Shown here in pieces: positions 1,475 to 20,224 of a stretch of 20,224 nucleotides of DNA. Position 1 is the stretch's first letter; each line of letters begins with the position of its first letter. The DNA is taken from positions 1 through 20,224 of IMG/VR virus record IMGVR_UViG_3300028298_000040. The stretch is one strand, 5' to 3'. A model generated the notes under the pieces. It was not told where the DNA came from and ran no database searches. It worked only from the letters and a program-made list of their open reading frames with translations. The translations under genes and the position numbers were made by a program. The DNA is from a virus.

Positions 1475-1713
1475 TATTAAGACTACGTGTAGAACATATG
1501 AAAGATGCTAGTGGTGAGAAGAAGCGAGTTCTTTTCTCTACTTTGACGACTGAGATTAAGGGGATGGAGCGTATAGACGCTGTGGCTGAGCTAGATGAAC
1601 ACTGTATCTTAGGCAGAGAAATCAGTCAGCTTATAGCTGAACTTCTCGCTCTGAAGACAAAGGACTTAAAGGTCGGAAGAAAGGCTATTATTAAAAGTAA
1701 AAAGAAAAAATAG
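1471..1713 (+). CDS. Small basic protein of unknown function (80 aa)
   Basis: Starts at ATG 1471 inside the stop of the preceding gene (ATGA overlap) and ends at TAG 1711-1713. The N-terminal third looks like beta strands (ILRLRVEHM, then KKRVLFSTLTTEIKGME). The middle is helical and leucine-rich (ISQLIAELLALK). The C-terminus is a very basic tail ending in KSKKKK, which could contact DNA or an acidic partner. No family is recognised. It sits in a run of four small genes between portal and scaffold, with one base between it and the next start, so it is probably co-translated with its neighbours. Coding status rests on these overlaps and the clean frame. Confidence 0.75.
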   Translation: MILRLRVEHMKDASGEKKRVLFSTLTTEIKGMERIDAVAELDEHCILGREISQLIAELLALKTKDLKVGRKAIIKSKKKK

Positions 1714-1714
1714 T

Positions 1715-1978
1715 ATGAAAAAAGAAACACTTTATAAGAAGATGGACAATATCCGAAAGGCGGCAACAAATGCGGTTGGTACAGCCATTGCAGCCCCAGC
1801 TATTATCAAATCTAAGATGGCCATTAATCAGAGTACTAAAGATACAAAGGCTTTAAAAACTGCCAGAGAATATGAAGGTATGCCAAATGAAAATCCAGAT
1901 GGATCTTTTACAGATGGTTTCAAGGCACGTTCTGTGGCCGCTGGAGTCCGAGCAAGACTATTAAGAGGTCAAAAATAG
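1715..1978 (+). CDS. Small basic protein of unknown function (87 aa)
   Basis: ATG at 1715 lies one base after the previous stop; the gene ends at TAG 1976-1978. The protein is basic, with an Ala-rich moderately hydrophobic stretch at residues about 16-31 (AATNAVGTAIAAPAIIK) that is too short and polar for a firm transmembrane call. It is followed by a polar region with 'NENPDGSFTDGFKARSVAAG' and an Arg-rich end. It resembles small phage head-region proteins of unknown role but no family is named with confidence. The extended -10 site for the next gene starts 18 bases after this stop. Confidence 0.72.
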   Translation: MKKETLYKKMDNIRKAATNAVGTAIAAPAIIKSKMAINQSTKDTKALKTAREYEGMPNENPDGSFTDGFKARSVAAGVRARLLRGQK

Positions 1979-1995
1979 TAGACAATAAAAAGTCG

Positions 1996-2004
1996 TGATA
2001 TAAT
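1996..2004 (+). promoter_or_regulatory. Extended -10 promoter (TGATATAAT) for a leaderless transcript
   Basis: The string TGATATAAT is a full extended -10 element (TGN plus consensus TATAAT). The hexamer is 1999-2004 and the ATG of the next gene is at 2011, so a start site at the usual distance falls on or next to the ATG, giving an mRNA with essentially no leader. No good -35 sits at 17 bases; TAGACA at 1979-1984 matches TTGACA at five of six positions but leaves a 14-base spacer, which is short. The extended -10 may make a -35 unnecessary. It would drive the 65-residue gene and the scaffold/capsid block. Same layout as at 15501 and 19265. Confidence 0.65.
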
Positions 2005-2010
2005 AATTAT

Positions 2011-2208
2011 ATGAATCTACAAGAAGCATTAGCAAAAGAGTCATTTGGAGAAGAAGAATTGAAAGTAATCAACGCTCACCGCGCAGAACTTTCAGACGCT
2101 GATCTGATTCGACTAGGTTTCAAACAACCAGAGCCAGCTGAAGAAATTAACCCTTCAGAAGACGCTCCGGTTGTTGAAAAGCCGAAGAGAACAAAGAAAG
2201 TAGTTTAA
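2011..2208 (+). CDS. Small acidic/basic-tailed protein of unknown function (65 aa)
   Basis: The ATG at 2011 follows an extended -10 box by six bases, which fixes the start and suggests a leaderless mRNA; the gene ends at TAA 2206-2208. The N-terminal 45 residues are helical and acidic (FGEEELKVINAHRAEL, then DADLIRLGF). The C-terminal 20 residues are Pro/Glu-rich and then Lys-rich (KPKRTKK), most likely disordered. No known domain is recognised. It is the first gene of the unit that contains scaffold and major capsid protein, so a head-assembly accessory role is plausible but is inference from position. A 92-base non-coding leader with a hairpin separates it from the scaffold gene. Confidence 0.72.
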   Translation: MNLQEALAKESFGEEELKVINAHRAELSDADLIRLGFKQPEPAEEINPSEDAPVVEKPKRTKKVV

Positions 2209-2233
2209 CAATTAACCGTCCCAAACCTGTTGT

Positions 2234-2264
2234 AACCTTTATGGTTCTGCCCTCACGGGAACCA
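2234..2264 (+). promoter_or_regulatory. Structured leader with two alternative hairpins before the scaffold gene
   Basis: In the 92-base gap before the scaffold gene, TGGTT (2242-2246) can pair with AACCA (2260-2264), with CCC (2250-2252) pairing GGG (2257-2259) around a TCAC loop and CTG bulged. The same GGTT (2243-2246) can instead pair with AACC (2234-2237) over a five-base loop. The two folds exclude each other. No T-run follows, so this is not a classic intrinsic terminator. Function (RNA stability, processing or translation control of scaffold) is unknown. Confidence 0.4.
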
Positions 2265-2300
2265 CATAAGCTTTAGAACAAACGGGATTAAAAAACAAAA

Positions 2301-3044
2301 ATGACAGATACCCACCAAACTTCAGTTGAGGACACTTCACAAGTCAACCCTCCAGAAACGGTAACAGAGACAACTGCAAACATTAATAGTAAGCACGCCG
2401 AGGACACTATTGATTATAAAACAAAATTCAGCGAGTCTTCAAAAGAAGCACTCCGACTGCTAGAGGAAACTCGAGCAAAGGATGCAGAAATAGAAAGACT
2501 CAGGACAGCAGCTGAATCAGGCACCAGCTATGGTAACAATTCAGACGCACTCTATCCGGGTTTTGAAAACCTTGACGATGAAGCACAGAAGAACCTTTTA
2601 GCTTATACGAACAGCATTAAGAAGAATACGCTAGACGAGGTCTATAAAGACCCAGCTATCGCCTTCGCGAAGCAGTCATATAACGAAAGGGTTTGGTCTG
2701 AAGCATTTGATAGCGCCGCTAGTGAGTTTCCCGAACTCAAAGATTCTCAAAGTGAATTTAAGCAGAAGTACTTTAAGGCCGACAATGTTCCTACGAACAT
2801 CAAGGACATCTTGAAAGACTTGGCTAAGGTTCACCTATTTGATAAAGCTAGAGACATCGGAGCAAAACAAGCTAAAGAACAAGCTGAGAGAATCGACATT
2901 GAGCGAGCCAAAGGTGGAGATAAAACTCCAACAGCGTCCCGAACACTTGAAGATTGGAATCAGATGGCTAAGTCAAATCCTGCGGAATTTGCTAAGAACT
3001 CAAAACAATTTAACGACGAGCTTGCATCTGGAAAATTAAAATAG
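2301..3044 (+). CDS. Scaffolding-like protein (247 aa)
   Basis: The gene begins at ATG 2301 after an A-rich stretch and ends at TAG 3042-3044, 27 bases before the major capsid gene. Scaffolding proteins direct procapsid assembly and are then lost from the head. What supports this: location immediately upstream of the capsid gene; a polar, Thr/Glu-rich disordered N-terminus (residues 1-40); a coiled-coil stretch at about 45-73 with 'KEALRLLEETRAKDAEIERL'; and a long, highly charged helical remainder with no cysteines and no hydrophobic core segment. A short repeated-Lys/Glu helix at about 185-205 is followed by a C-terminal region 'TLEDWNQMAKSNPAEF', a type of tail seen in phage scaffold proteins that bind the coat. 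Sequence identity in this class is low, so the call leans on order and composition. Confidence 0.75.
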   Translation: MTDTHQTSVEDTSQVNPPETVTETTANINSKHAEDTIDYKTKFSESSKEALRLLEETRAKDAEIERLRTAAESGTSYGNNSDALYPGFENLDDEAQKNLLAYTNSIKKNTLDEVYKDPAIAFAKQSYNERVWSEAFDSAASEFPELKDSQSEFKQKYFKADNVPTNIKDILKDLAKVHLFDKARDIGAKQAKEQAERIDIERAKGGDKTPTASRTLEDWNQMAKSNPAEFAKNSKQFNDELASGKLK

Positions 3045-3071: not shown

Positions 3072-4181
3072 ATGACTCAAAGTTTAGCTGCGAATACTCC
3101 AATAAAGTATTCGTTAAAGTTGGTACAACTTTTGTACAATGAAACACTGTACACAAAGATCACAAACACTAATTACGAAGGTGAGATTCGTGATTCAGGT
3201 GACAGAGTTCGAGTTCGAACTCTAGGTAAGCTCGCTCTAAGTGCATACACTAAGGGTATGACTTTAGTTGCTCAGGAATTGGCTCCTACATCTGAAGACT
3301 TGATTATCGATCAACAGTACTACTTCCGATTCGGAGTAGATGATATCGATAAGATGCAGAATGACGTCAACACAATTACTGAATACGCTCAGACTTCAAA
3401 GAGAGATATGCAGGAATTGCTAGATACAGATCTTTTGACTTACATGAGAAAGAATGTTGACGGACGAAACGCTATCGGTACTGTTTACAATACTGGTACA
3501 GTTTCTATTGCCGCTACAACAGGTGTCGTTCAAGGAACAGCTACTTTCACAGCGGCTATGGTTGGTGGGTATCTATCAGTAAACTCTACTGCTACTACTC
3601 CTACTTACTACCTAGTAACTGCTTTCACTAACGCTTCTTCAATCACGATTAAAGATCTTGATGGTGTTGCATACACTGGTGGAGCTATTGCTTCAACAGC
3701 AGTTGGTTCAGCTTATGTAATCAATGCAGCAACAGCTACAGCGGTTACAAAGAGTAACATCTACAAACAACTTGTAGACTTGAGAACAGTTCTTGGACAG
3801 CGATTGACTCCTAAGGAAGGAAGGTTCCTAGTTATCAACTCGGTGGCTGAAGGTGCTTTGTTACAGGCTCCAGAATTTATCCCAGCAGTAGGCTCAGCTT
3901 ACGACGATGCGGTAAAGGGTGCTAAAATCGGAAAGATTGCAGGATTTGATGTTTACACATCAGAACTAATCAACGGTGATAACACTACTGGTTACTGGTA
4001 TGTAGCAGGAACACGAGATTACTGTGCTATGGCTCTTCAGATCATGAAGACGTCTATGGTTTCAGAATCAAATGACCCTACTTCATTCATGACAACTGTT
4101 AAAGGTTTGTTGGTTTGGGGAAGAAAAGTGTTCGCTGGAAACAGAGGACGCGGTGCGGTTCTTAGAGCAACTATCTCTTAA
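3072..4181 (+). CDS. Major capsid protein with an inserted beta domain (369 aa)
   Basis: Starts at ATG 3072, ends at TAA 4179-4181. This is the shell protein, probably of the HK97/P22 coat fold. Residues 1-135 carry the typical pattern of podovirus coat proteins: 'YNETLYTKITNTNYEGEI' then a Val/Arg strand (GDRVRVRTLGKL) and a long helix region 'DDIDKMQNDVNTITEYA'. Residues about 136-218 form a Thr/Ala/Gly-rich beta-strand insertion ('GTATFTAAMVGGYL', then 'SSITIKDLDG') that looks like the surface domain inserted in many environmental capsid proteins. The core resumes at about 220 with 'IYKQLVDLRTVLGQRLTP' and 'IAGFDVYTSELI', ending in a small basic C-terminus. Lysine is mostly AAG (13 of 18) and arginine often CGA (6 of 16), which reflects this phage's own codon style. 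A hairpin follows the stop. Confidence 0.88.
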   Translation: MTQSLAANTPIKYSLKLVQLLYNETLYTKITNTNYEGEIRDSGDRVRVRTLGKLALSAYTKGMTLVAQELAPTSEDLIIDQQYYFRFGVDDIDKMQNDVNTITEYAQTSKRDMQELLDTDLLTYMRKNVDGRNAIGTVYNTGTVSIAATTGVVQGTATFTAAMVGGYLSVNSTATTPTYYLVTAFTNASSITIKDLDGVAYTGGAIASTAVGSAYVINAATATAVTKSNIYKQLVDLRTVLGQRLTPKEGRFLVINSVAEGALLQAPEFIPAVGSAYDDAVKGAKIGKIAGFDVYTSELINGDNTTGYWYVAGTRDYCAMALQIMKTSMVSESNDPTSFMTTVKGLLVWGRKVFAGNRGRGAVLRATIS

Positions 4182-6035: not shown

Positions 6036-6662
6036 ATGACGAATGTCAAAATTACAGAATTAAGTGCCATAACTGCTCCGGTCATAACGGACGTAGTTCC
6101 TATTGTTTCAGATCCAGCCGGAACACCGGTGACTAAAAAGGTGACTGTTGCTAATCTCTTGAACACTCGTAGATTGTTCTCTATCGTACCGGCAGGAGAT
6201 TTCGCTTTAACAGCAGGGGCTTCGGCTCAGGCGGCACTTCCTACAACCGGAGATGTCTTCACTCTTGAGGGGACGACGACATATCGTTTTGAAGGTACTT
6301 ATTATATAACGAAATCAGGAACGACTTGTACAACCGCTCTTGGTTTTGCTCTTGCTGGAGGTGCTTCTATTACTTCGATTCTTTATACGGCACTTTGTCA
6401 AAACATCGCCAAGAATACCACTGGTTCGACCCATGGGTCTGCCTGGATAGACACTGTTTCTGCAACCGTAGTGAACGCAACAGCTACGACTGCGGCTTAT
6501 ATAAAATTTGAAGGACTAATTCGAATGAATGCAGGAGGAACAGTTACTCCTCAGATTACTTTCTCAGCCACTCCTACAACTCCTATTATGTTAGCGAATT
6601 CGTACATTTGGTTTGAGAAGATTGGAACAAGTGTTGAAAATACACTTGGAAGTGTTGCTTGA
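6036..6662 (+). CDS. Tail/head appendage protein with fibre-type anchor (208 aa)
   Basis: Starts at ATG 6036 and ends at TGA 6660-6662. Residues 1-45 match a common phage appendage anchor: 'KITELSAITAPVITDVVPIV' then 'DPAGTPVTKKVTVANLL'. Residues about 48-200 look like one compact beta sandwich (strands FSIVPAGDFAL, TYRFEGTYYIT, AYIKFEGLIRMNAGG) ending in a typical final strand 'SYIWFEKIGT'. The domain looks complete, so the homing-endonuclease gene that follows has not cut this protein. It is probably a short receptor-binding or decoration protein on tail or head. Composition is Thr/Ala-rich like the rest of the fibre region. The function is inferred from anchor type and location. Confidence 0.7.
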   Translation: MTNVKITELSAITAPVITDVVPIVSDPAGTPVTKKVTVANLLNTRRLFSIVPAGDFALTAGASAQAALPTTGDVFTLEGTTTYRFEGTYYITKSGTTCTTALGFALAGGASITSILYTALCQNIAKNTTGSTHGSAWIDTVSATVVNATATTAAYIKFEGLIRMNAGGTVTPQITFSATPTTPIMLANSYIWFEKIGTSVENTLGSVA

Positions 6663-6672
6663 TAATAAATGT

Positions 6673-7224
6673 ATGAAAATATATAAAAATCCGAACGATA
6701 AAAGAATAGGAACAAAAAGAAAAACTCCAGCTTGGAATAAAGGCAAGGTTGGTCTTCAAGTGTCTACAAGAAAAGGAAAGAGTTTTCCAGAAAAGTCTGG
6801 TCCGAATAGTCCGGCATGGAAGGGGGGCCTTCCTGTGTGTTTTTGTGGCAAGAAATTATCAGCATATGATTCAAAGAGATGTGTTAAATGTCATATTCGT
6901 GAGGTGTCTGAAATGAAAGGTGAAAGTCACTTTAACTATAAAAAAGACAGGAGTATGATTAAAATATCTGATCGCCATATAGATGCTAATTACAAAATCT
7001 GGATGTTAGCAGTTAAAAAGAGAGATGGTTGGAAATGTAAAATTGCTAACAAAGATTGTGAAGGTCGTATGGAGGCTCATCATATCTTGACTTGGAAAAA
7101 TAATCCTGAACTACGGTATGAGGTAAAAAATGGTATCACACTTTGTCATTTTCATCATCCTCGAACAAGAGAAGCAGAGAGTCGCTTATCCCCTTTTTAT
7201 CAGAGTTTAATTAGCGTAGCTTAA
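6673..7224 (+). CDS. Free-standing HNH homing endonuclease with NUMOD3 motifs (183 aa)
   Basis: The open frame reaches back to 6613, but ATG 6673 is preferred: it avoids a 50-base overlap with the previous gene and starts directly at the conserved part. Residues 12-26 (GTKRKTPAWNKGK) and 44-52 (GPNSPAWKGG) are NUMOD3-type DNA-binding motifs, with a weaker third at 83-90. C56, C58, C70 and C73 form a small zinc-ribbon-like cluster. The nuclease core has C122 and C129, the A-H-H-I at 135-138, N153, then L-C-H-F-H-H at 157-162: the HNH pattern with a second metal knuckle. Homing endonucleases of this type cut a related DNA lacking the gene so that repair copies it in. Lysine codons are 20 AAA to 7 AAG, opposite to the capsid gene, which suggests a separate origin. 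No intron or intein is visible around it, so it is a stand-alone element lodged between fibre genes. Confidence 0.88.
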   Translation: MKIYKNPNDKRIGTKRKTPAWNKGKVGLQVSTRKGKSFPEKSGPNSPAWKGGLPVCFCGKKLSAYDSKRCVKCHIREVSEMKGESHFNYKKDRSMIKISDRHIDANYKIWMLAVKKRDGWKCKIANKDCEGRMEAHHILTWKNNPELRYEVKNGITLCHFHHPRTREAESRLSPFYQSLISVA

Positions 7225-7434: not shown

Positions 7435-9615
7435 ATGGCTGTCATTTACGATACATTTCCAGGGTCCTCGATAGACACAACAAAGTGGTCGGCAACGGCT
7501 GGTGTTGCTGTCAGCTCAGGTAAGGTTACGGTCACTGGTTCTGAAATTGGTGGAGGAAACTACATAACAAGCGTTGGAACTTTTGGACAAGGAAAGACTT
7601 ATACCTTTACTAATGCCTACATGGAAAGGACGACCCTTTCAGGTGTAGAAATGGGTTTTCCAAGTGGATTTCGTTTCGGAAATGCCTGGACAACTAATGG
7701 AAATTATCAGGCCTATGGCCCCTCTACTTCTACTGATACAGGTATTGCTTGTAGCACTACTCCAAGAGAATTTAAAATTGACTGGAAAATAGATGGAACC
7801 GCTTTGTTTTACATAGATTCAGTTCTAGTTTTCACTTGTGCAGATGTTGATACTGCTACACGTAGTCTGAAATTTAGTCAGTACGATAATACCAAGACAA
7901 CAGTTTGCGAAGAAGTTAGTTATGTCTTCTCTGAATCAGCCGTAGGGGCGTCAGTTGATGTTCTAGTTGTCGCAGGAGGAGGTTCAGGAGGTTACAACGG
8001 CAACAGTAGTTATTTCAATGGAGGAGGAGGAGCTGGAGGTATGTCTTACTTAACTGGCGTTAAAGTTACGTCTACTGGGTATACAATTACAGTTGGTGCT
8101 GGAGGTTCTACTTCAGGTTCTGGAAATAATGGTTCTGATTCTTCATTTTCGACAGATCTTACAGCGACAGGTGGAGGTAAAGGAGGTGTTTATTCCTCCG
8201 GTGGAAGTACTGGGGGATCAGGAGGAGGTGGAACGTATTTCGGCGGGTCTACTTCTGGAGGAGGGGCTAGTATTCCTCTTCAAGGATATGCAGGAGGTTC
8301 TGGGACAAGTAGTCCTTCAGCAAAGGCAGGAGGCGGAGGAGGAGCTGGAGGTGAAGGTACTACAACAGCAGGTATTGGTCTTGCTAACTCTATTACTGGG
8401 GCCTCAGTTACTTATGCTATTGGAGGAGCAGGAAGAAGTGGGACAGCAGCCGCAGGTGGAGCTGGAGAGAGTGATGCTGGGGCTGCAAATCGTGGAAATG
8501 GAGGAGGAGGAGGATATCCGTCACCTGGTGCTGGAGGCTCTGGAGTTGTTATCGTTAGATATCTAACTACTGATATTCCGTCGGCAACAGGAGGTACAGT
8601 TACAACCGATGGTCTTTATACCGTTCGAACTTTTACAGCCAGTGGTACTTTTACACCAGACGTACCACCAAGTGTTACAACTGGATCTATTTCAAATATT
8701 GATTTTTCAATAGCAACGGCGGCAGGAAATGCAACATCAGACAACGGTGCAGCCATCACAGAACGCGGTGTTTGTTGGAGTACAGCAACGACTCCGACGA
8801 CTGCTAATGATAAGGCGACATCTGCTGGAACAACTGGTACTTACACTGTTTCAATGACTGGTTTGTCTGGTTCTACTCACTACTACGCTAGAGCTTATGC
8901 AACCAATGCTAACGGTACATCTTATGGCTCAGAAGTTGAGTTTGATACAACTTCAACTAGCCCTGATACTTTATATTGGGATATTAGCGGGGTAGAGGGT
9001 GAAACTTATGCTGTGTCAGTTTATGTTGGGGGTTCCACTGGAACTGTTACAGTAAAACTAGGATCTACTGGTACTACTCAGGTCATAAATGCTGGAGCTG
9101 GCACGACGGTATTTCAAGGGACTTATGGAGGTCTTAATGGTTTAACCTTTGTCGCTAGTGCTACTTTTGATGGTTATATAGACAACGTATATCATGTACT
9201 AATTTTAGGAGATGCTTCTATAAATTGGTCACTCAACACTCTTACCAATGTATTCCCTATCAACTCATCAGTCTTATTCAAGCGTCTTGAAGATAAAGAT
9301 TTTGATAAATTTAGAGTTTATCGCTATTTAGATATTCAATTTAAAGACTTAACCGCTTACGTCACTGTTTTACTTAAAAAAGAAAAAGATGAATCTGGAT
9401 CAGATAGCGGGAAGGAGTTTTTAGTTAGTAACACCAGTGGCTACACCCTTCCTTTTATAAACAAGAAAGTTTCAATGTTGACTAAAAACTATGGAATGAG
9501 AGTTGGGTTCTCCCACAACAGGCTGAGTGAAACATTCACCGTCTGCCAGTTTGTGATTTCAGGAAAGGAGGCGTTAAAGAAGACTTTTAGCAGTAGTAAG
9601 ATTATTAGTATATAA
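7435..9615 (+). CDS. Large Gly-rich tail fibre with lectin-like and fibronectin-like domains (726 aa)
   Basis: Starts at ATG 7435 and ends at TAA 9613-9615. Domain order by eye: residues 1-165 a lectin-like beta sandwich beginning 'YDTFPGSSIDTTKWSA' and containing 'REFKIDWKIDGTALFYIDS'; residues about 172-375 a glycine-rich domain beginning 'VDVLVVAGGGSGG' with many GGGG blocks and closing 'GSGVVIVRYL', the pattern of the Gly-rich domain common in phage fibres; residues about 411-506 a fibronectin-III-like domain ('ITERGVCWSTATTPT', 'GLSGSTHYYARAYATNANG'); residues 510-726 a less familiar region with a beta-rich part and a charged end. Glycine codons in the Gly block are mainly GGA. It lacks an obvious anchor of its own, so it may dock through the 66-residue protein just upstream. 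It probably projects from the tail and contacts the host surface. Confidence 0.75.
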   Translation: MAVIYDTFPGSSIDTTKWSATAGVAVSSGKVTVTGSEIGGGNYITSVGTFGQGKTYTFTNAYMERTTLSGVEMGFPSGFRFGNAWTTNGNYQAYGPSTSTDTGIACSTTPREFKIDWKIDGTALFYIDSVLVFTCADVDTATRSLKFSQYDNTKTTVCEEVSYVFSESAVGASVDVLVVAGGGSGGYNGNSSYFNGGGGAGGMSYLTGVKVTSTGYTITVGAGGSTSGSGNNGSDSSFSTDLTATGGGKGGVYSSGGSTGGSGGGGTYFGGSTSGGGASIPLQGYAGGSGTSSPSAKAGGGGGAGGEGTTTAGIGLANSITGASVTYAIGGAGRSGTAAAGGAGESDAGAANRGNGGGGGYPSPGAGGSGVVIVRYLTTDIPSATGGTVTTDGLYTVRTFTASGTFTPDVPPSVTTGSISNIDFSIATAAGNATSDNGAAITERGVCWSTATTPTTANDKATSAGTTGTYTVSMTGLSGSTHYYARAYATNANGTSYGSEVEFDTTSTSPDTLYWDISGVEGETYAVSVYVGGSTGTVTVKLGSTGTTQVINAGAGTTVFQGTYGGLNGLTFVASATFDGYIDNVYHVLILGDASINWSLNTLTNVFPINSSVLFKRLEDKDFDKFRVYRYLDIQFKDLTAYVTVLLKKEKDESGSDSGKEFLVSNTSGYTLPFINKKVSMLTKNYGMRVGFSHNRLSETFTVCQFVISGKEALKKTFSSSKIISI

Positions 9616-9616
9616 T
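9587..9616 (+). promoter_or_regulatory. Possible promoter for the ejection-protein block (TTAGCA ... TATAAT)
   Basis: A consensus TATAAT at 9611-9616 overlaps the TAA stop of the fibre gene and ends nine bases before ATG 9626. TTAGCA at 9587-9592 matches TTGACA at four of six positions with an 18-base spacer. There is no TGN extension. The expected start site lies about three bases before the ATG, as at the other leaderless-type sites. The evidence is weaker than for the three extended -10 sites because the area is AT-rich. Confidence 0.4.
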
Positions 9617-9625
9617 TAATATAAC

Positions 9626-11626
9626 ATGGCACAACTAATTAATGGCAAATGGGTATACGATCAGAATGACAAGTTTGATGCAATGACTGGAAAGCCTTTG
9701 GGTGCCGTCGCAGGGGCTTCGACTGATACCCAAGAACCCGATAATCCTAATTATCCACCACGAGGGACAAGTGATTATGTCATGCCTGGTACGAACATTC
9801 CATTTCGAAATGAGGAGCAAGCTTCTCTGTTTGGGTACAACGGAGAAGTGGCTCAGAACGCTGTCCAGAATAATTACGCCTCATCAGGTTTTGGTAAAAG
9901 TGTGCCAGTGTTCTCCGCTGACGAATCAAAAAGCTTTGCTGCTAAGTCTGGGTTTTCTGGTCTGGGTAAAGATAGTCAGTTCGCAGGACTTACTTCTGCA
10001 CAGGCTACAGCTAAGGCCACTGAATTGAAGAAAGGACTTCTAGCCAATACTTCTGCTAACACATCTTATGCTTACAATCCTCAAACTATCTCAGGTTTCG
10101 GTAAGAAGGTTGGCGACTTAAAAATTCAGCTTGATAGTTTGAACTCCTCTCCGTGGGATAACTCAAATCAAAAGCGAGAAAATGGTCAAATGATTTTAAA
10201 CGGTTACACAAATCAACTAGCAGGTCTTTTCTCATCTCAGGAAGACTTTAAGTCGGCTTTAAATAATCCAGATCTTCAAGGGGCCTTACAGAAGTTTCAG
10301 TCACTTGGTGGTAATACGGCTGATATCGCAGCTAAAATTAGTGAAGCTCCAGCTGGTAGTCAAGATGCAACGAACACACCTCCGAAGAAGTCTACTGACC
10401 AGAGTATGACTCAATATCTGGGAGACACGAGTGGTGTCGATGCTCAACAAGCTTTGAAAGACCTTATTCCTGAGGACTCTTTGGTTCAGCAACAGATTGC
10501 TTTCCAGAACTCGATTCCTGAAAAGTATAAGGACTTATACTTCGGAACTCCAGAGAAGGCTGGGATTTTACAGCAGAAGATTGATATTGAGAAAGAGAAA
10601 GTTGAATTATTGAAGAAGAAAGCTGAGACAGACAAAGCAAATGCTAACGCTCAGGTTCAATACAATATTGAGAAGAACAATGCAGACGTTGCTATTGAAC
10701 AGGCTACGATTGAACAGAATAGACAAGCTGCTAAAAACTACATGACCGGAGCGTTGGCTAAGCTTGGTGCGCTTAATACTACAGGTGCTGCACCAGTCGC
10801 GCTTGCCACTTTAGAGCAGAAGTACCAGCAACAGTCTCAGACTTTGAACACTAAGTTACGGTTTGCTAACCAGCAGTTAAGTATAGACCTTAACGAGAAG
10901 GTTAGCGGAGTAGACTACAAGCGTGATGAGGATATCCTTTCATTGAAGAGCGACCTTAGCAAGGATAAAGAGGATGTTTATAAGGAAATCTTCAAACTTC
11001 AGAATACTGCTGATAAGGAGAAGTTTAGTCTTATCTCTAAGTTCCAAGATGAGTTTACTAAACGTAAAGACGCTTACTCTAAGGAGGCTAAACAGTTGGC
11101 TGAGAAGAACTTGAATGAAATGAAGAGTATTATGAAGACTTTTGATCCTCAGCGATTCTTGAAAGAATTTGGTGGAGATATTAAGGATAATAGACCAAAG
11201 AAGGGTGATGGATCGGGTTCAGGCTCTCCCGCATTAACTTTTGCTAACTTTGTTGCAGGGAAACAAAAGGAAGAGCAGAGAAGTCTATCTGGTAAGGGGG
11301 TGAAGAGTATTACACCAGAGTATCTTTCATCATTATTGGATTCGAATGTTTCAAGTGACTTGAAAGCGGTAATCGCAGGCGAAAAATCTCTTTCAACTTA
11401 TACTCCATCAGTCCAAACAAAGGTACAGCGTGAAATGACTAAGCTGGGAATTAAGAAGGAAATGCTTTCTACATTAAACAATAAACCATCAGAAGTAGAC
11501 GCTCTCAAGGAGGCTAAACAGTTTATGAAAGACAACCCAGATGTTGAAATTGGTGATATAAGACAGAGATTCTTGGAGAATTATCCTGATAAGGCCACTC
11601 TGTTTAAAGAGTATTTTCCACAATAA
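9626..11626 (+). CDS. Coiled-coil internal virion / ejection-type protein (666 aa)
   Basis: Starts at ATG 9626 and ends at TAA 11624-11626, six bases before the next gene. Residues 1-110 are polar and low in complexity (NGKWVYDQNDKFDAMTGK; Pro/Asn-rich). Residues about 312-505 are a long, highly charged helical stretch with heptad character ('DIEKEKVELLKKKAETDKA', later 'KEAKQLAEKNLNEMKSIM'), interrupted near 375-395 by an Ala/Gly-rich segment. A flexible linker DGSGSGS lies near residue 528, followed by a helical C-terminal domain of about 130 residues ending in 'IRQRFLENYPDKATLFKEYF'. No catalytic motif is seen. By place (after the nozzle and fibres, before the polyvalent protein pair) it is best explained as an internal or ejection protein, analogous in position to T7/P22 internal virion proteins. 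This is inference; no family match is claimed. Confidence 0.6.
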   Translation: MAQLINGKWVYDQNDKFDAMTGKPLGAVAGASTDTQEPDNPNYPPRGTSDYVMPGTNIPFRNEEQASLFGYNGEVAQNAVQNNYASSGFGKSVPVFSADESKSFAAKSGFSGLGKDSQFAGLTSAQATAKATELKKGLLANTSANTSYAYNPQTISGFGKKVGDLKIQLDSLNSSPWDNSNQKRENGQMILNGYTNQLAGLFSSQEDFKSALNNPDLQGALQKFQSLGGNTADIAAKISEAPAGSQDATNTPPKKSTDQSMTQYLGDTSGVDAQQALKDLIPEDSLVQQQIAFQNSIPEKYKDLYFGTPEKAGILQQKIDIEKEKVELLKKKAETDKANANAQVQYNIEKNNADVAIEQATIEQNRQAAKNYMTGALAKLGALNTTGAAPVALATLEQKYQQQSQTLNTKLRFANQQLSIDLNEKVSGVDYKRDEDILSLKSDLSKDKEDVYKEIFKLQNTADKEKFSLISKFQDEFTKRKDAYSKEAKQLAEKNLNEMKSIMKTFDPQRFLKEFGGDIKDNRPKKGDGSGSGSPALTFANFVAGKQKEEQRSLSGKGVKSITPEYLSSLLDSNVSSDLKAVIAGEKSLSTYTPSVQTKVQREMTKLGIKKEMLSTLNNKPSEVDALKEAKQFMKDNPDVEIGDIRQRFLENYPDKATLFKEYFPQ

Positions 11627-16540: not shown

Positions 16541-18961
16541 GTGACAAAAGAATTACCTATTGAAATAAACGTAACAGCAGAGCCGGGGAAGGACGGCTAT
16601 ACTCCTGTAAAGGGAACTGATTACTTCACACCAGAGGAACAGGCGTCTTTTGTTAGTGATATAATGAGTCGTATACGGGTTCCTCAGGATGGAGTTGATG
16701 CACAACCTATGGATTATTCAAAGGTTGAATCGTTTATCGCCTCAGAGGTAGCCAAGATTCCTAAGCCAGAGGTTGTCGACAATACTGTTGACACTGAATC
16801 AATTGTAGCTGAAGTCTTAAAGAAGATACCGGAACAGCCAGAGATTGTGGTTGATTACGAGGCGCTTAAGAAGTTCTGCCTAGAGGAGATCCAAAAGATT
16901 GAAGACAACCGAGACTCGCGCGTAAGACAGCTACATAGTGGTGGGCCGACAACTAGGTTAAATGAAATCTCAGACGTTGACGCTGACAACGCTACCTCCG
17001 GTCAAGTTCTCTCATACAACGGATCAAGATGGGTTCCTATCACCATCTCCGTACCACCCACCACCTCCCCAGGTGGCTCTACCACTCAAGTTCAATTCAA
17101 TGACGCTGGAGCTTTTGGAGGAGATGCAGGATTTACTTATGATAAGACTACAGACTCTGCCACTCTAGCAGGTAATCTGTCAGTCTTAGACGACCCCTAC
17201 GCAGTAGGTTGGAACGGCTCTACGAATGTCCCTACCAAGAACGCTGTTTACGATAAAATAGAAACTCTGGTCACTGGTGTTTCTTCTGTCACAGCCACCA
17301 ACTCTACCCTCACAATCTCCCCAACTACAGGAGCAGTTCTTGCAGGTCTTAACCTTGCAAATGCAAACACTTGGACAGGACAACAAACTTTTAATACATC
17401 AACAGCTATATTTGGATTAGCTCCGACATTCTCCACGATGACAGCTGGGTCGGTATTGTTTGCTGGTACTTCAGGGCTTCTTTCACAAGACAACACTAAC
17501 TTCTTTTGGAATAACTCAACAAAAAAATTAAAACTAAATAATTCATTACAATTTTCTCAAGATGCTTCATATAATTATATATTAGGTGATGGTGGGACAA
17601 ATGATAATCGTTCGCTTTGGATGTCGGCTGGTGCGGGATATGAAAGCGGCGGGGTGGCATACGGTTCTGGCAGTGTTTTGTTTCAAGGCGCAGCGGCGGG
17701 GAGTTTAACAACTGCTAATGGCAATGGTGGTGCTGGCGGTGGGATGACCTTTAAGCCGTCCGATGGTGGGTCTTCTTCTTTTGTTGGCGGCGGTTCAAAC
17801 ACAGGGGGTGGCGGAGGTTCTGTCAGCGTTGGTTCAGGTTATGGTGGTGCGGCGTCTAGCAGCACTAACAGCAACGGTGGCGGGAGCGGCGGCGAGATTG
17901 GTTTTTACGCAAATGCGGGCGGCTCAGCTACTGGTGGCGTTTCTGCTACTGGCGGAGCGGGTGGTAGAATGATTTTCAATACCGGCGCTGGTGCGGTCGC
18001 TTCGGGAGGTTCTTCTAGCAACAACAGCGGAACAGGTGGCGCACTTACCTACATAACTGGTACTGGCGCTCAAGCTATTGATGTAGGAGTGGCTACAAAC
18101 GTAGGCGGAGCGGGCGGGTCAATTTCTTATACTTCTGGTAATGGAGGTGATGCCGGAAATTCATCAACATCCAATACGACAGGAGATGGTGGGTCTGTTG
18201 TATTTAACTCTGGGCGAGGGGGGGATGTTACTGGTACTGGTTCTGCTGCAGATTTTTCTGGGCAGGGCGGAAATATGCAGTTCTTCGGGGGTCGTGGAGG
18301 GGCTTCTAAATTTAACGGTGTTGCTGCCGGATTTGGGGGGCTAGTAACAATCAGCGGCGGAACCGGCGGAGCGGGAAGTGTAAATGGCGCAATCCCTAAT
18401 ACGGGCGGTGGATTTACTGGAACAGGTGGTACAGGCGGCGGTAATACTGTTGCAGGAGCTAATGCTAATGTAGGAGGTGCTGGTGGTTCTTTTCAATTAA
18501 AGGGTGGAAGTGGCGGAGCTGCAAGGTCATCCACATTGTCCAATACGGCTGGCGCTGGCGGTTTCTTAAATCTCCTTGGCGGGACCGGTGGTATATCATC
18601 TTCTGGTACTGCTAGACAAGGCGGAGCGGGTGGTTATGTCAATATCAATGGTGGTACTGGTTCTACCTTAAACGGCGCAGGAGGGTCGGTATATCTGGTC
18701 GGAGGCCCAGGGAGCGGAACTGGTGTAGTTGGTAACGTATATCTGGGGAAAGACTCATCAGGAAACACCAGAGGAACTGTAATTGCTGTAGTGCCAATTA
18801 GATTAAAGGCATACACTGTGGCAACACTTCCAGCTGGTGTTCAAGGAGATACAGCCCTTGCCACTGATTTACTTGCTCCTGCCTTTCTTGTCGCCGCCGT
18901 TGGTGGTGGTGCCGTAGTAGGTCCAGTATTTTTCAATGGTGCCGCTTGGATAGCTTATTAA
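16541..18961 (+). CDS. Adhesin 2: shared anchor plus Gly-rich repeat shaft (806 aa)
   Basis: Begins at GTG 16541, four bases after the previous stop, with no ATG nearby that preserves the anchor; ends at TAA 18959-18961. Residues 1-165 parallel the previous adhesin: 'GKDGYTPVKGTDYFTPEE', three helical segments, then 'SGGPTTRLNEISDVDAD' and 'SGQVLSYNGSRWVP'. Residues about 180-330 are fibre modules seen in many environmental phages ('TTQVQFNDAGAFGGDAGF', 'VGWNGSTNVPTKNAVYDKIE', 'NANTWTGQQTF'). Residues about 360-725 are about 14 degenerate Gly-rich repeats of roughly 25 residues. The last 65 residues ('KAYTVATLPAGVQGDTAL', 'GGGAVVGPVFFNGAAWIAY') are a common fibre C-terminal cap. Base composition changes abruptly along the gene (C-rich, then AT-rich near 17515-17590, then G-rich), the mark of a mosaic built by module exchange. 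Probable receptor-binding fibre. Confidence 0.75.
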   Translation: MTKELPIEINVTAEPGKDGYTPVKGTDYFTPEEQASFVSDIMSRIRVPQDGVDAQPMDYSKVESFIASEVAKIPKPEVVDNTVDTESIVAEVLKKIPEQPEIVVDYEALKKFCLEEIQKIEDNRDSRVRQLHSGGPTTRLNEISDVDADNATSGQVLSYNGSRWVPITISVPPTTSPGGSTTQVQFNDAGAFGGDAGFTYDKTTDSATLAGNLSVLDDPYAVGWNGSTNVPTKNAVYDKIETLVTGVSSVTATNSTLTISPTTGAVLAGLNLANANTWTGQQTFNTSTAIFGLAPTFSTMTAGSVLFAGTSGLLSQDNTNFFWNNSTKKLKLNNSLQFSQDASYNYILGDGGTNDNRSLWMSAGAGYESGGVAYGSGSVLFQGAAAGSLTTANGNGGAGGGMTFKPSDGGSSSFVGGGSNTGGGGGSVSVGSGYGGAASSSTNSNGGGSGGEIGFYANAGGSATGGVSATGGAGGRMIFNTGAGAVASGGSSSNNSGTGGALTYITGTGAQAIDVGVATNVGGAGGSISYTSGNGGDAGNSSTSNTTGDGGSVVFNSGRGGDVTGTGSAADFSGQGGNMQFFGGRGGASKFNGVAAGFGGLVTISGGTGGAGSVNGAIPNTGGGFTGTGGTGGGNTVAGANANVGGAGGSFQLKGGSGGAARSSTLSNTAGAGGFLNLLGGTGGISSSGTARQGGAGGYVNINGGTGSTLNGAGGSVYLVGGPGSGTGVVGNVYLGKDSSGNTRGTVIAVVPIRLKAYTVATLPAGVQGDTALATDLLAPAFLVAAVGGGAVVGPVFFNGAAWIAY
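17624..18740 (+). repeat. About 14 degenerate 25-residue Gly-rich repeats in adhesin 2
   Basis: Each unit reads roughly G-x-G-G, three alternating hydrophobic residues, x-x-G-x-G-G, then a 10-13 residue Ser/Thr/Asn linker. Examples of the core are GGAGGSISYTSGNGG, GDGGSVVFNSGRGG, GQGGNMQFFGGRGG and GGAGGSFQLKGGSGG. The 11-base word GGCGGAGCGGG recurs exactly at 17951, 18104, 18365 and 18620, always in the same codon phase (spacings 153, 261 and 255), pointing to past duplication. Glycine codons here are mainly GGC/GGT, unlike the GGA-rich block at 7950-8550. Confidence 0.75.
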
Positions 18962-18975
18962 AATAATATAAATAT

Positions 18976-19272
18976 ATGAAACCACAAATTCTAAAAAAAG
19001 AAATTAAAAATCAAAATCTAGACGGTTCTTTGTATGACAACTCAGTCTATGAAATCCCAGTAGAACATACTGACGATTATGGGAATCTTTACTACACTAA
19101 ACTCACAAGGTCTTGCACAGAATACGACAAAGAACAGCAAGATAAACGGGATGCTCTACAGGCGGAAATTGATGCCCTCAAAGATGAAAACGAGGTAGCA
19201 AAGAAAATTGCTGAAAAGGAAGCAGAATTATCAACACTAGAAGTTTTACCAGTTAGCGAAGAAATGGTATAA
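18976..19272 (+). CDS. Small protein with C-terminal coiled coil, after the adhesins (98 aa)
   Basis: Starts at ATG 18976, 14 bases after the adhesin stop, and ends at TAA 19270-19272, a stop that lies inside the -10 box of the next promoter. The first 45 residues look beta-rich ('LDGSLYDNSVYEIPVEH', 'YGNLYYTKLTRS'); residues about 47-90 form a charged coiled coil ('KEQQDKRDALQAEIDALKDE'). No signal peptide or membrane helix. Small proteins directly after a fibre gene are often fibre-assembly chaperones, and the coiled coil would suit that, but the sequence does not match a chaperone family I recognise. Treat the role as unknown. Confidence 0.68.
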   Translation: MKPQILKKEIKNQNLDGSLYDNSVYEIPVEHTDDYGNLYYTKLTRSCTEYDKEQQDKRDALQAEIDALKDENEVAKKIAEKEAELSTLEVLPVSEEMV

Positions 19273-19281: not shown

Positions 19282-19434
19282 ATGAAAATATCAATCGAAC
19301 TTGCAAACGCAATCCTTAATTACTTAGCTTCACGACCTTACATTGAGGTAGCTAAACTTATCAATGATTTACAAGCTCAAGCTCCTAAACCAGAAGAAAT
19401 TAAAACGCCTACGGAAGAACCTAAGGCTTTGTAA
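19282..19434 (+). CDS. Small conserved phage protein of unknown function (50 aa)
   Basis: ATG 19282 follows the extended -10 box by eight bases; the gene ends at TAA 19432-19434. The protein begins 'MKISIELANAILNYLASRPY' and continues as one amphipathic helix pair to about residue 33 (IEVAKLINDLQAQ), then a Pro/Glu-rich tail. I recognise the N-terminal pattern (hydrophobic strand, A/V-N-A-I-L-x-Y-L, R-P-Y-x-E-V) from very small proteins found in many tailed phages near fibre or lysis genes; their function is not known to me. The clear promoter, the clean start and the three-base link to the next gene make this a real gene despite its length. Confidence 0.75.
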   Translation: MKISIELANAILNYLASRPYIEVAKLINDLQAQAPKPEEIKTPTEEPKAL

Positions 19435-19436
19435 GA

Positions 19437-19754
19437 ATGAAACGCATGGAAAACCTAGAAGCACCGAAAACAATAGAAGAAGTGGGGATACACTTGATGT
19501 ATATGTCGGGCACTTTGAAGGAAATGAAAAGGTCTTTGGATGCTTCTCAGGCGAACCATGTACCTATCTCTGTGTACCTAGAAAACAAGGAGGAGATTAG
19601 CAAAAAAATTAAATCTCTAGAGGAGGAAACAGAAGTTATCCAGACCTTTATTAGCTCTTGGGTAGGTAAAGTCTGGGGTATTAACTTCACAATCGGTATT
19701 GTAATTGCAGGGATAATGTTTGTAGTAAGTAACTGGCACAACTTTATAAAATGA
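19437..19754 (+). CDS. Holin-like membrane protein with coiled coil (105 aa)
   Basis: Starts at ATG 19437 (a second ATG at 19446 would shorten it by three residues) and ends at TGA 19752-19754, overlapping the next start by four bases (ATGA). Residues 1-45 are soluble and helical; residues about 51-70 form a coiled coil ('KEEISKKIKSLEEETEVI'); residues about 79-100 are one strong transmembrane helix ('INFTIGIVIAGIMFVVSNW') with a short polar end. A coiled coil followed by a single C-terminal helix resembles the haemolysin XhlA-like class of phage lysis accessory proteins. The place before another tiny membrane protein and a peptidase supports a lysis role. A weak AAGG lies ten bases before the ATG, the nearest thing to a Shine-Dalgarno in the window. 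A holin-type function is inferred, not shown. Confidence 0.65.
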   Translation: MKRMENLEAPKTIEEVGIHLMYMSGTLKEMKRSLDASQANHVPISVYLENKEEISKKIKSLEEETEVIQTFISSWVGKVWGINFTIGIVIAGIMFVVSNWHNFIK

Positions 19755-19864
19755 ATAACGAAGATGAAATTGGAGTACTAGATGAAGGTTCTATAGGAGC
19801 AATGTGCTTCGCAGTATTCATTATCGTAGCTTTATTAATCGGTGGTTATTATTTAATATTTTAA
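19751..19864 (+). CDS. Tiny single-span membrane protein (37 aa)
   Basis: ATG 19751 lies within the stop of the previous gene (ATGA overlap) and TAA is at 19862-19864. The protein has an acidic N-terminus (MNNEDEIGVLDEG) and one hydrophobic helix over residues about 15-37 (IGAMCFAVFIIVALLIGGYY), ending directly at the C-terminus. The four-base overlap with the holin-like gene and a three-base gap to the peptidase gene argue for co-translation. Together with the previous gene it may form a holin/antiholin or spanin-like pair; no lipobox is seen, so it is not an obvious o-spanin. The function is unknown. Confidence 0.62.
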   Translation: MNNEDEIGVLDEGSIGAMCFAVFIIVALLIGGYYLIF

Positions 19865-19867
19865 ACT

Positions 19868-20224
19868 ATGTTCAACTATCTATATCGCAAATTTTTCTTC
19901 AAAGTTCCGCAGTTAGGAGATAACCTAGATACTCGTACAGAGGGTGAGAAGCTAACAGCTTTTGATAACCGAGAAATTGCCTTTGCAGGTTCACCAATCC
20001 AATGGGTAGAGAAATCTTCTTGGAAGAACTATCCTATTAAATACCAGTACTACACTGGGGAATGTGTAGCTCAGTCCACAACTAAGCATCTAGGCATCAA
20101 CGACAAGGTAGGAATAGGTCAGTACGCTAGTCTTTCGGCAGAGTTCTTTTACTACTACAGGTCAAACAGACCAGATGCTGGAATGATTTGGCTAGACGCT
20201 ATGAACATCGCTACTACGAAAGGT
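19868..20224 (+). CDS. Papain-like (C1) cysteine peptidase, 5' part (runs off window)
   Basis: ATG 19868 follows the previous stop by three bases; 119 residues are visible and the frame stays open to the end. The segment at residues 60-70 reads Q-Y-Y-T-G-E-C-V-A-Q-S: C66 would be the catalytic cysteine and Q60 the oxyanion-hole glutamine, with the same six-residue spacing as in papain (Q19, C25). It is followed by 'LSAEFFYYYRSN' and 'DAGMIWLDAMNIATTKG', which match the L-S-x-Q and G-G-x-x-x-x-A-x-x-Y-x-x-x-x-G regions of C1 peptidases. The catalytic His and Asn would lie beyond the window. No signal peptide is seen; residues 1-45 may be a short propeptide-like or virion-binding part. Next to holin-like genes it could work in lysis or as a virion-borne peptidase; a capsid-maturation role is less likely from its position. 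Confidence 0.75.
   Translation, partial: MFNYLYRKFFFKVPQLGDNLDTRTEGEKLTAFDNREIAFAGSPIQWVEKSSWKNYPIKYQYYTGECVAQSTTKHLGINDKVGIGQYASLSAEFFYYYRSNRPDAGMIWLDAMNIATTKG

Follow-up and report, generated by a model that had tools for sequence, protein, structure and literature searches.

A predicted papain-type (C1A) phage lysin from a family with an acidic third triad residue, in a tailed phage with a probable Patescibacteria-type host

The window, that is, the whole stretch of DNA analyzed (an entire IMG/VR record of 20,224 bases), closes with a gene that is cut by the contig end and that, judged from its sequence (19868-20224), is the start of a genuine papain-family (C1A) cysteine peptidase. This gene probably encodes a holin-released, wall-targeted phage endolysin of the papain type (C1A, xylellain-like). 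A lysin is favored by the combination of a wall-binding domain in the relatives, neighboring membrane proteins and the known lysis enzymes that related phages have at the corresponding place. The preliminary description had listed an unusual lysin beside a virion-borne entry enzyme and a protease against a surface layer; the first of these now leads as the most probable of the three.

Gene layout of the window

A tailed-phage structural module is present in the window, with tail and fiber-like genes up to position 18961. The late region ends with the peptidase gene, which is 16 kb away from the portal and capsid genes. The main features are the following:

3-1163, portal-type protein, so called because of where it lies and of weak family evidence, without a strong database match
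3072-4181, major head protein (PHROG 267, 4.5e-34)
7435-9615 and 16541-18961, plus strand, two long proteins, rich in glycine and repeat-like, that probably serve as tail fiber or in adsorption
18976-19272, plus strand, soluble ORF of 98 aa in the same gene run as the peptidase (ORF list)
19282-19434, plus strand, small soluble ORF of 50 aa in the same gene run (ORF list)
19437-19754, plus strand, 105-aa protein whose hydropathy peaks at residue 79 (2.23), with one transmembrane (TM) segment; a putative holin or accessory protein of one
19751-19864, plus strand, 37-aa protein, also with one TM segment (translation, hydropathy peak 2.57) and likewise a putative holin or accessory protein of one
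19868-20224, plus strand, C1A peptidase, N-terminal 119 codons from an ATG start, open at the contig end (translation)

The genes are tightly packed, with a 4-base overlap between the two membrane genes and a peptidase start 3 bases after the second, in agreement with the two small membrane proteins that had been placed directly upstream. The N-terminal part of the 105-aa protein is charged and probably coiled, its single TM segment is C-terminal, and a Pfam scan of this protein gave no family above the cut-off. For the 37-aa protein, we infer a holin role from its position. No match to the 98-aa or the 50-aa ORF was obtained in the fetched related loci.

The peptidase fragment

In the fragment, Q60 (codon 20045-20047) and the catalytic C66 (codon 20063-20065) have the papain spacing Q-x5-C, the only such motif among the 23 window genes checked, and both the L89-S90-A91-E92 segment and the G105-M106 region were seen. 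When the 119-aa fragment was used as a direct query, no match was obtained in Pfam, NCBIfam, PDB sequences, viral contigs or GenBank phages, and a structure model of the fragment alone was poor (pLDDT 61.9). Against a profile of 12 full-length relatives, from which the window protein was excluded, the fragment scored 95.4 bits (E 3e-28); none of 2000 shuffled controls exceeded 5.0 bits, and none of the other window ORFs was significant against this profile. All 13 rows of the family alignment share Q60, C66, Y95, R98, N100, G105, M106 and G119, and the LSAE and Gly regions fall in conserved stretches of the family.

The preliminary description had called a C1-type peptidase from the Q/C pair, the LSAE segment and the Gly region. 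The pair is conserved, since Q60 and C66 are invariant and the leave-one-out score is high; the other two elements also held, and the call itself was reinforced by the leave-one-out profile and by the PDB and xylellain matches described below.

Full-length relatives

The relatives were reached via the neighborhood, through phages with a related portal-type protein, for which 56 related loci were found in viral contigs. Three of 37 portal-related records encode a protein that matches the fragment (E near 1e-8), the open frames being 327-343 residues long. Searches with these three proteins, singly and as an alignment, led to 12 distinct full-length IMG/VR proteins, which together with the public phage protein UOF78884.1 constitute the 13 full-length members. 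UOF78884.1, deposited as a 'hypothetical protein' of Siphoviridae sp. ctPCi537 (MW202577.1, Manatee Spring), is a distant relative that scored 102.5 bits to the family profile and has the same Q, C, H and D residues. A viral-contig search with a 591-aa window gene product gave nothing.

Additionally, 50,697 GenBank phage records were searched by tblastn with six queries (the window fragment, full-length P0002 and P0004, and the catalytic parts of L085, L086 and L087). Among the matches listed, C1 relatives were present only in a 595-kb phage and in MW202577. The search with P0004 returned 540 records, mostly wall-binding-domain matches among those listed. Two GenBank phage hits, H1 and H22, gave no score against the catalytic profile and were therefore rejected as relatives.

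Fold and catalytic residues

Two family members passed the Pfam Peptidase_C1 model (PF00112) with 36.9 and 35.0 bits against a cut-off of 20.7, and in the remaining members the score was below the cut-off or absent. In the PDB, the family profile matched procerain B (8e-11) and cathepsin K (2.5e-10), in an alignment covering Gln, Cys and His through the papain NSWG position. The AlphaFold model of the relative L083, built from the 13-row alignment, had a mean pLDDT of 84.4. Its best structural match was xylellain (PDB 3OIS), a short bacterial C1A peptidase (Foldseek E 2.5e-14, Z 26.8, rmsd 3.2, 238 residues). This match extends over the entire catalytic region, N-terminal extension included, at 20% identity between xylellain and the phage family. 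The next matches were procathepsins or cathepsins and mite allergens (Z 20-23). The fold predicted for the family is papain-like, as had been anticipated. The full-length members gave no CHAP or NlpC/P60 match when scanned with Pfam; no such chain appeared among the structural matches listed for the L083 model, which alone excludes nothing.

The oxyanion Gln and the catalytic Cys are found in the window and in all members, and the catalytic His in every full-length member. C1A peptidases generally have an Asn-type triad, whereas the third residue in the phage family is Asp (11 of 13 full-length members) or Glu (2 of 13) and Asn in none, at a position that aligns with the NSWG Asn of procerain B. 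Therefore, of the His and Asn expected beyond the fragment, the relatives have the former, and the latter is replaced by an acidic residue. Other enzymes of the papain-like superfamily are known to use Asp or Glu as third residue (PMC10318531), and activity of this site is therefore possible in spite of its departure from papain proper; since the fold is also papain-like, the acidic residue was considered a variant and the C1 call stands. A more distant C1 peptidase in the 595-kb phage genome (LR756511.1; L104, 3932-4771, plus strand) keeps the Asn (IQNSWG) and gave no PG_binding_1 match.

Wall-binding domain and export

The C-terminal wall-binding domain that had been suggested as worth looking for was detected in the relatives: PG_binding_1 is at the C-terminus, above the Pfam curated cut-off, in all 12 full-length IMG/VR members (24-64 bits versus 23), while the match in UOF78884.1 was below it (18.0 versus 23 bits). 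By analogy, we infer that the window copy carries the same C-terminal PG_binding_1 beyond the contig end. We know of no peptidoglycan-binding domain in xylellain. An N-terminal hydrophobic segment is absent from 12 of the 13 full-length members, so export would need a holin-type route; P0002 has a weak one.

Genomic setting

A search of metagenomic phages for the same neighborhood showed that one-TM proteins come before the enzyme in most relatives; this is the arrangement in the window, L060, L058, L083, L085, L091 and MW202577. The gene order in MW202577, a complete circular genome, is one-TM protein, C1 peptidase, small TM protein and TM-anchored lysozyme-like protein. The C1 gene is followed in L091 by a small SLT or lysozyme-like gene (SLT_3 2.3e-7) and in L083 and L088 by weakly supported small candidates of this type. 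In L088, the C1 gene comes directly after a structural-type gene.

Other hydrolases are located in the same late region of portal-related phages: M15 with PG_binding_1 in L068, M15_3 in L070, Amidase_3 in L072 and GH6 in L064. The GH6 protein (1582-2622, minus strand; PF01341, 9.8e-33), an unusual enzyme here, adjoins small TM proteins, in a phage whose portal is 76% identical to that of the window. Moreover, in L108, an integrated and more distant relative, CHAP follows directly after a one-TM protein. Because related phages hold these other hydrolases in the corresponding region, we read this as a single lysis position filled by different enzymes, the positions having been compared by eye.

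Two proteins of these loci deserve separate mention. The L068 protein (1485-2552, minus strand) is endolysin-like, with a central PG_binding_1, a C-terminal M15 and an N-terminal HEICH zinc-peptidase-like motif. In L072, a 284-aa protein (8991-9845, plus strand) located between the one-TM protein and Amidase_3 has papain-like Cys/His motifs by eye; it was discarded as a candidate, being without profile similarity to the family.

Host of the phage group

A scan of 84,980 genomes gave one portal relative only, on a contig of a 1.7-Mb MAG. The sampled genomes of this phylum are mostly 0.5-1.4 Mb, and ribosomal protein L30 is absent from 56 of 59 of its genomes and present in 13 of 14 controls. 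Small genomes without L30 presumably point to Patescibacteriota. In a second genome of the phylum, a related prophage was found on a 149-kb contig (L107 10548 to L108 about 16737), with integrase (1.3e-25), terminase, portal, capsid, one-TM protein and CHAP endolysin; the integrase has apparent host glycosyltransferase genes on one side and those for terminase, portal and capsid on the other. The integration of a related prophage in a genome of this phylum speaks for hosts of the Patescibacteria type in this phage group, and the host of the window phage, by analogy with this distant relative, is probably Patescibacteriota. When 96 genomes of the phylum were searched for bacterial relatives of the catalytic domain, the wall-binding part alone matched.

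Proposed function and alternatives

As an endolysin, the enzyme would accumulate in the cytoplasm, presumably late in infection, without an export signal, and the adjacent small membrane proteins, as putative holin or holin accessory, would let it through. The C-terminal PG_binding_1 would then dock it on peptidoglycan, and the Cys-His-Asp/Glu site would cut a peptide bond of the wall, possibly in a stem or cross-link peptide or in a wall-bound protein, with the cell bursting as a result; the window copy is here assumed to be full length and active. Endolysin activity is a prediction for all family members. Several points weigh against it. To our knowledge, no C1A enzyme acts on peptidoglycan; the endolysin proper could instead be a small lysozyme-like protein, a gene for which is present in several of the phages that have the C1 enzyme; the membrane proteins matched no known holin family (105-aa protein, Pfam); and the His, the third residue and the wall-binding domain of the window copy lie beyond the contig end.

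C1A enzymes are endopeptidases that act on proteins, which is in favor of a lysis accessory protease: a wall-docked C1A would cut a wall-linked protein or a surface layer, and a separate lysozyme-like enzyme would cut the peptidoglycan. The genes after the C1 gene in L091 and MW202577, and the weak candidates in L083 and L088, fit this division of labor. However, the neighborhood of some members showed no second enzyme, and the comparable gene in the integrated relative and in others is a peptidoglycan hydrolase (CHAP, M15, Amidase_3), so that an accessory protease appears rather unlikely. Less likely still is a virion-borne enzyme in the tail that opens the wall locally at infection. Virion lysins may bind peptidoglycan too, and the gene is close after tail and fiber-like genes and, in L088, directly after the structural-type one; nevertheless, the enzyme is a protein in its own right (320-350 aa) rather than a portion of a tail protein, with genes for membrane proteins between it and the tail genes in the window and in most relatives. 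As for an intracellular protease of head maturation or host takeover, phage C1-type peptidases without an assigned role do exist (PHROG 16701 'peptidase', weak matches; PMC10380794), but the peptidoglycan-binding domain of the relatives and the distance from the portal and capsid genes make such a function very improbable.

Comparison with known phage enzymes

C1A peptidases in tailed phages were already known: a 2023 survey described xylellain-type C1A genes in Myoviridae and Siphoviridae (PMC10380794). CHAP, NlpC/P60 and Amidase_5 endolysins have a papain-like fold and Cys-His catalysis, are modular with wall-binding domains and lie beside holins (PMC10318531, PMC8586454), but the family described here matches C1A sequences and structures instead. 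A papain-clan peptidase in a phage endolysin, the N5 domain of a mycobacteriophage lysin, was described in 2012 as the first of its kind (PMC3314691); in contrast to the present C1A family, N5 is C39-like and usually one of three domains. In the open-access literature (main texts, with few subscription journals), we found no C1A domain described in the role of a lysin or in fusion with a peptidoglycan-binding domain, and no report of a lysis setting or an acidic triad residue for phage C1A peptidases.

The papain-fold types of phage lysins so far are CHAP, Amidase_5, NlpC/P60 and C39-like, to which a cathepsin-like C1A lysin would add a catalytic type; cleavage of peptidoglycan cross-link peptides, if it occurs, would be a new activity for C1A. 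The acidic third triad residue sets the family apart from ordinary papain-family proteases at a defined position that can be put to the test. More tentatively, and with somewhat more doubt than confidence, a C1A domain with this residue could be the sole catalytic domain of a distinct lysin class that replaces ordinary endolysins in phages of Patescibacteria-type hosts, cutting cross-link peptides or a wall-bound protein layer. The probable hosts, ultra-small bacteria, are hard to culture and their walls are poorly known; for this reason, the wall-opening enzymes of their phages offer a route to learning what holds these walls together.

Separately, in the structural part of the window, an HNH-endonuclease-like ORF (6613-7224, plus strand) was recognized by eye; it is inserted among the structural genes and has relatives in about 10 of the fetched loci.
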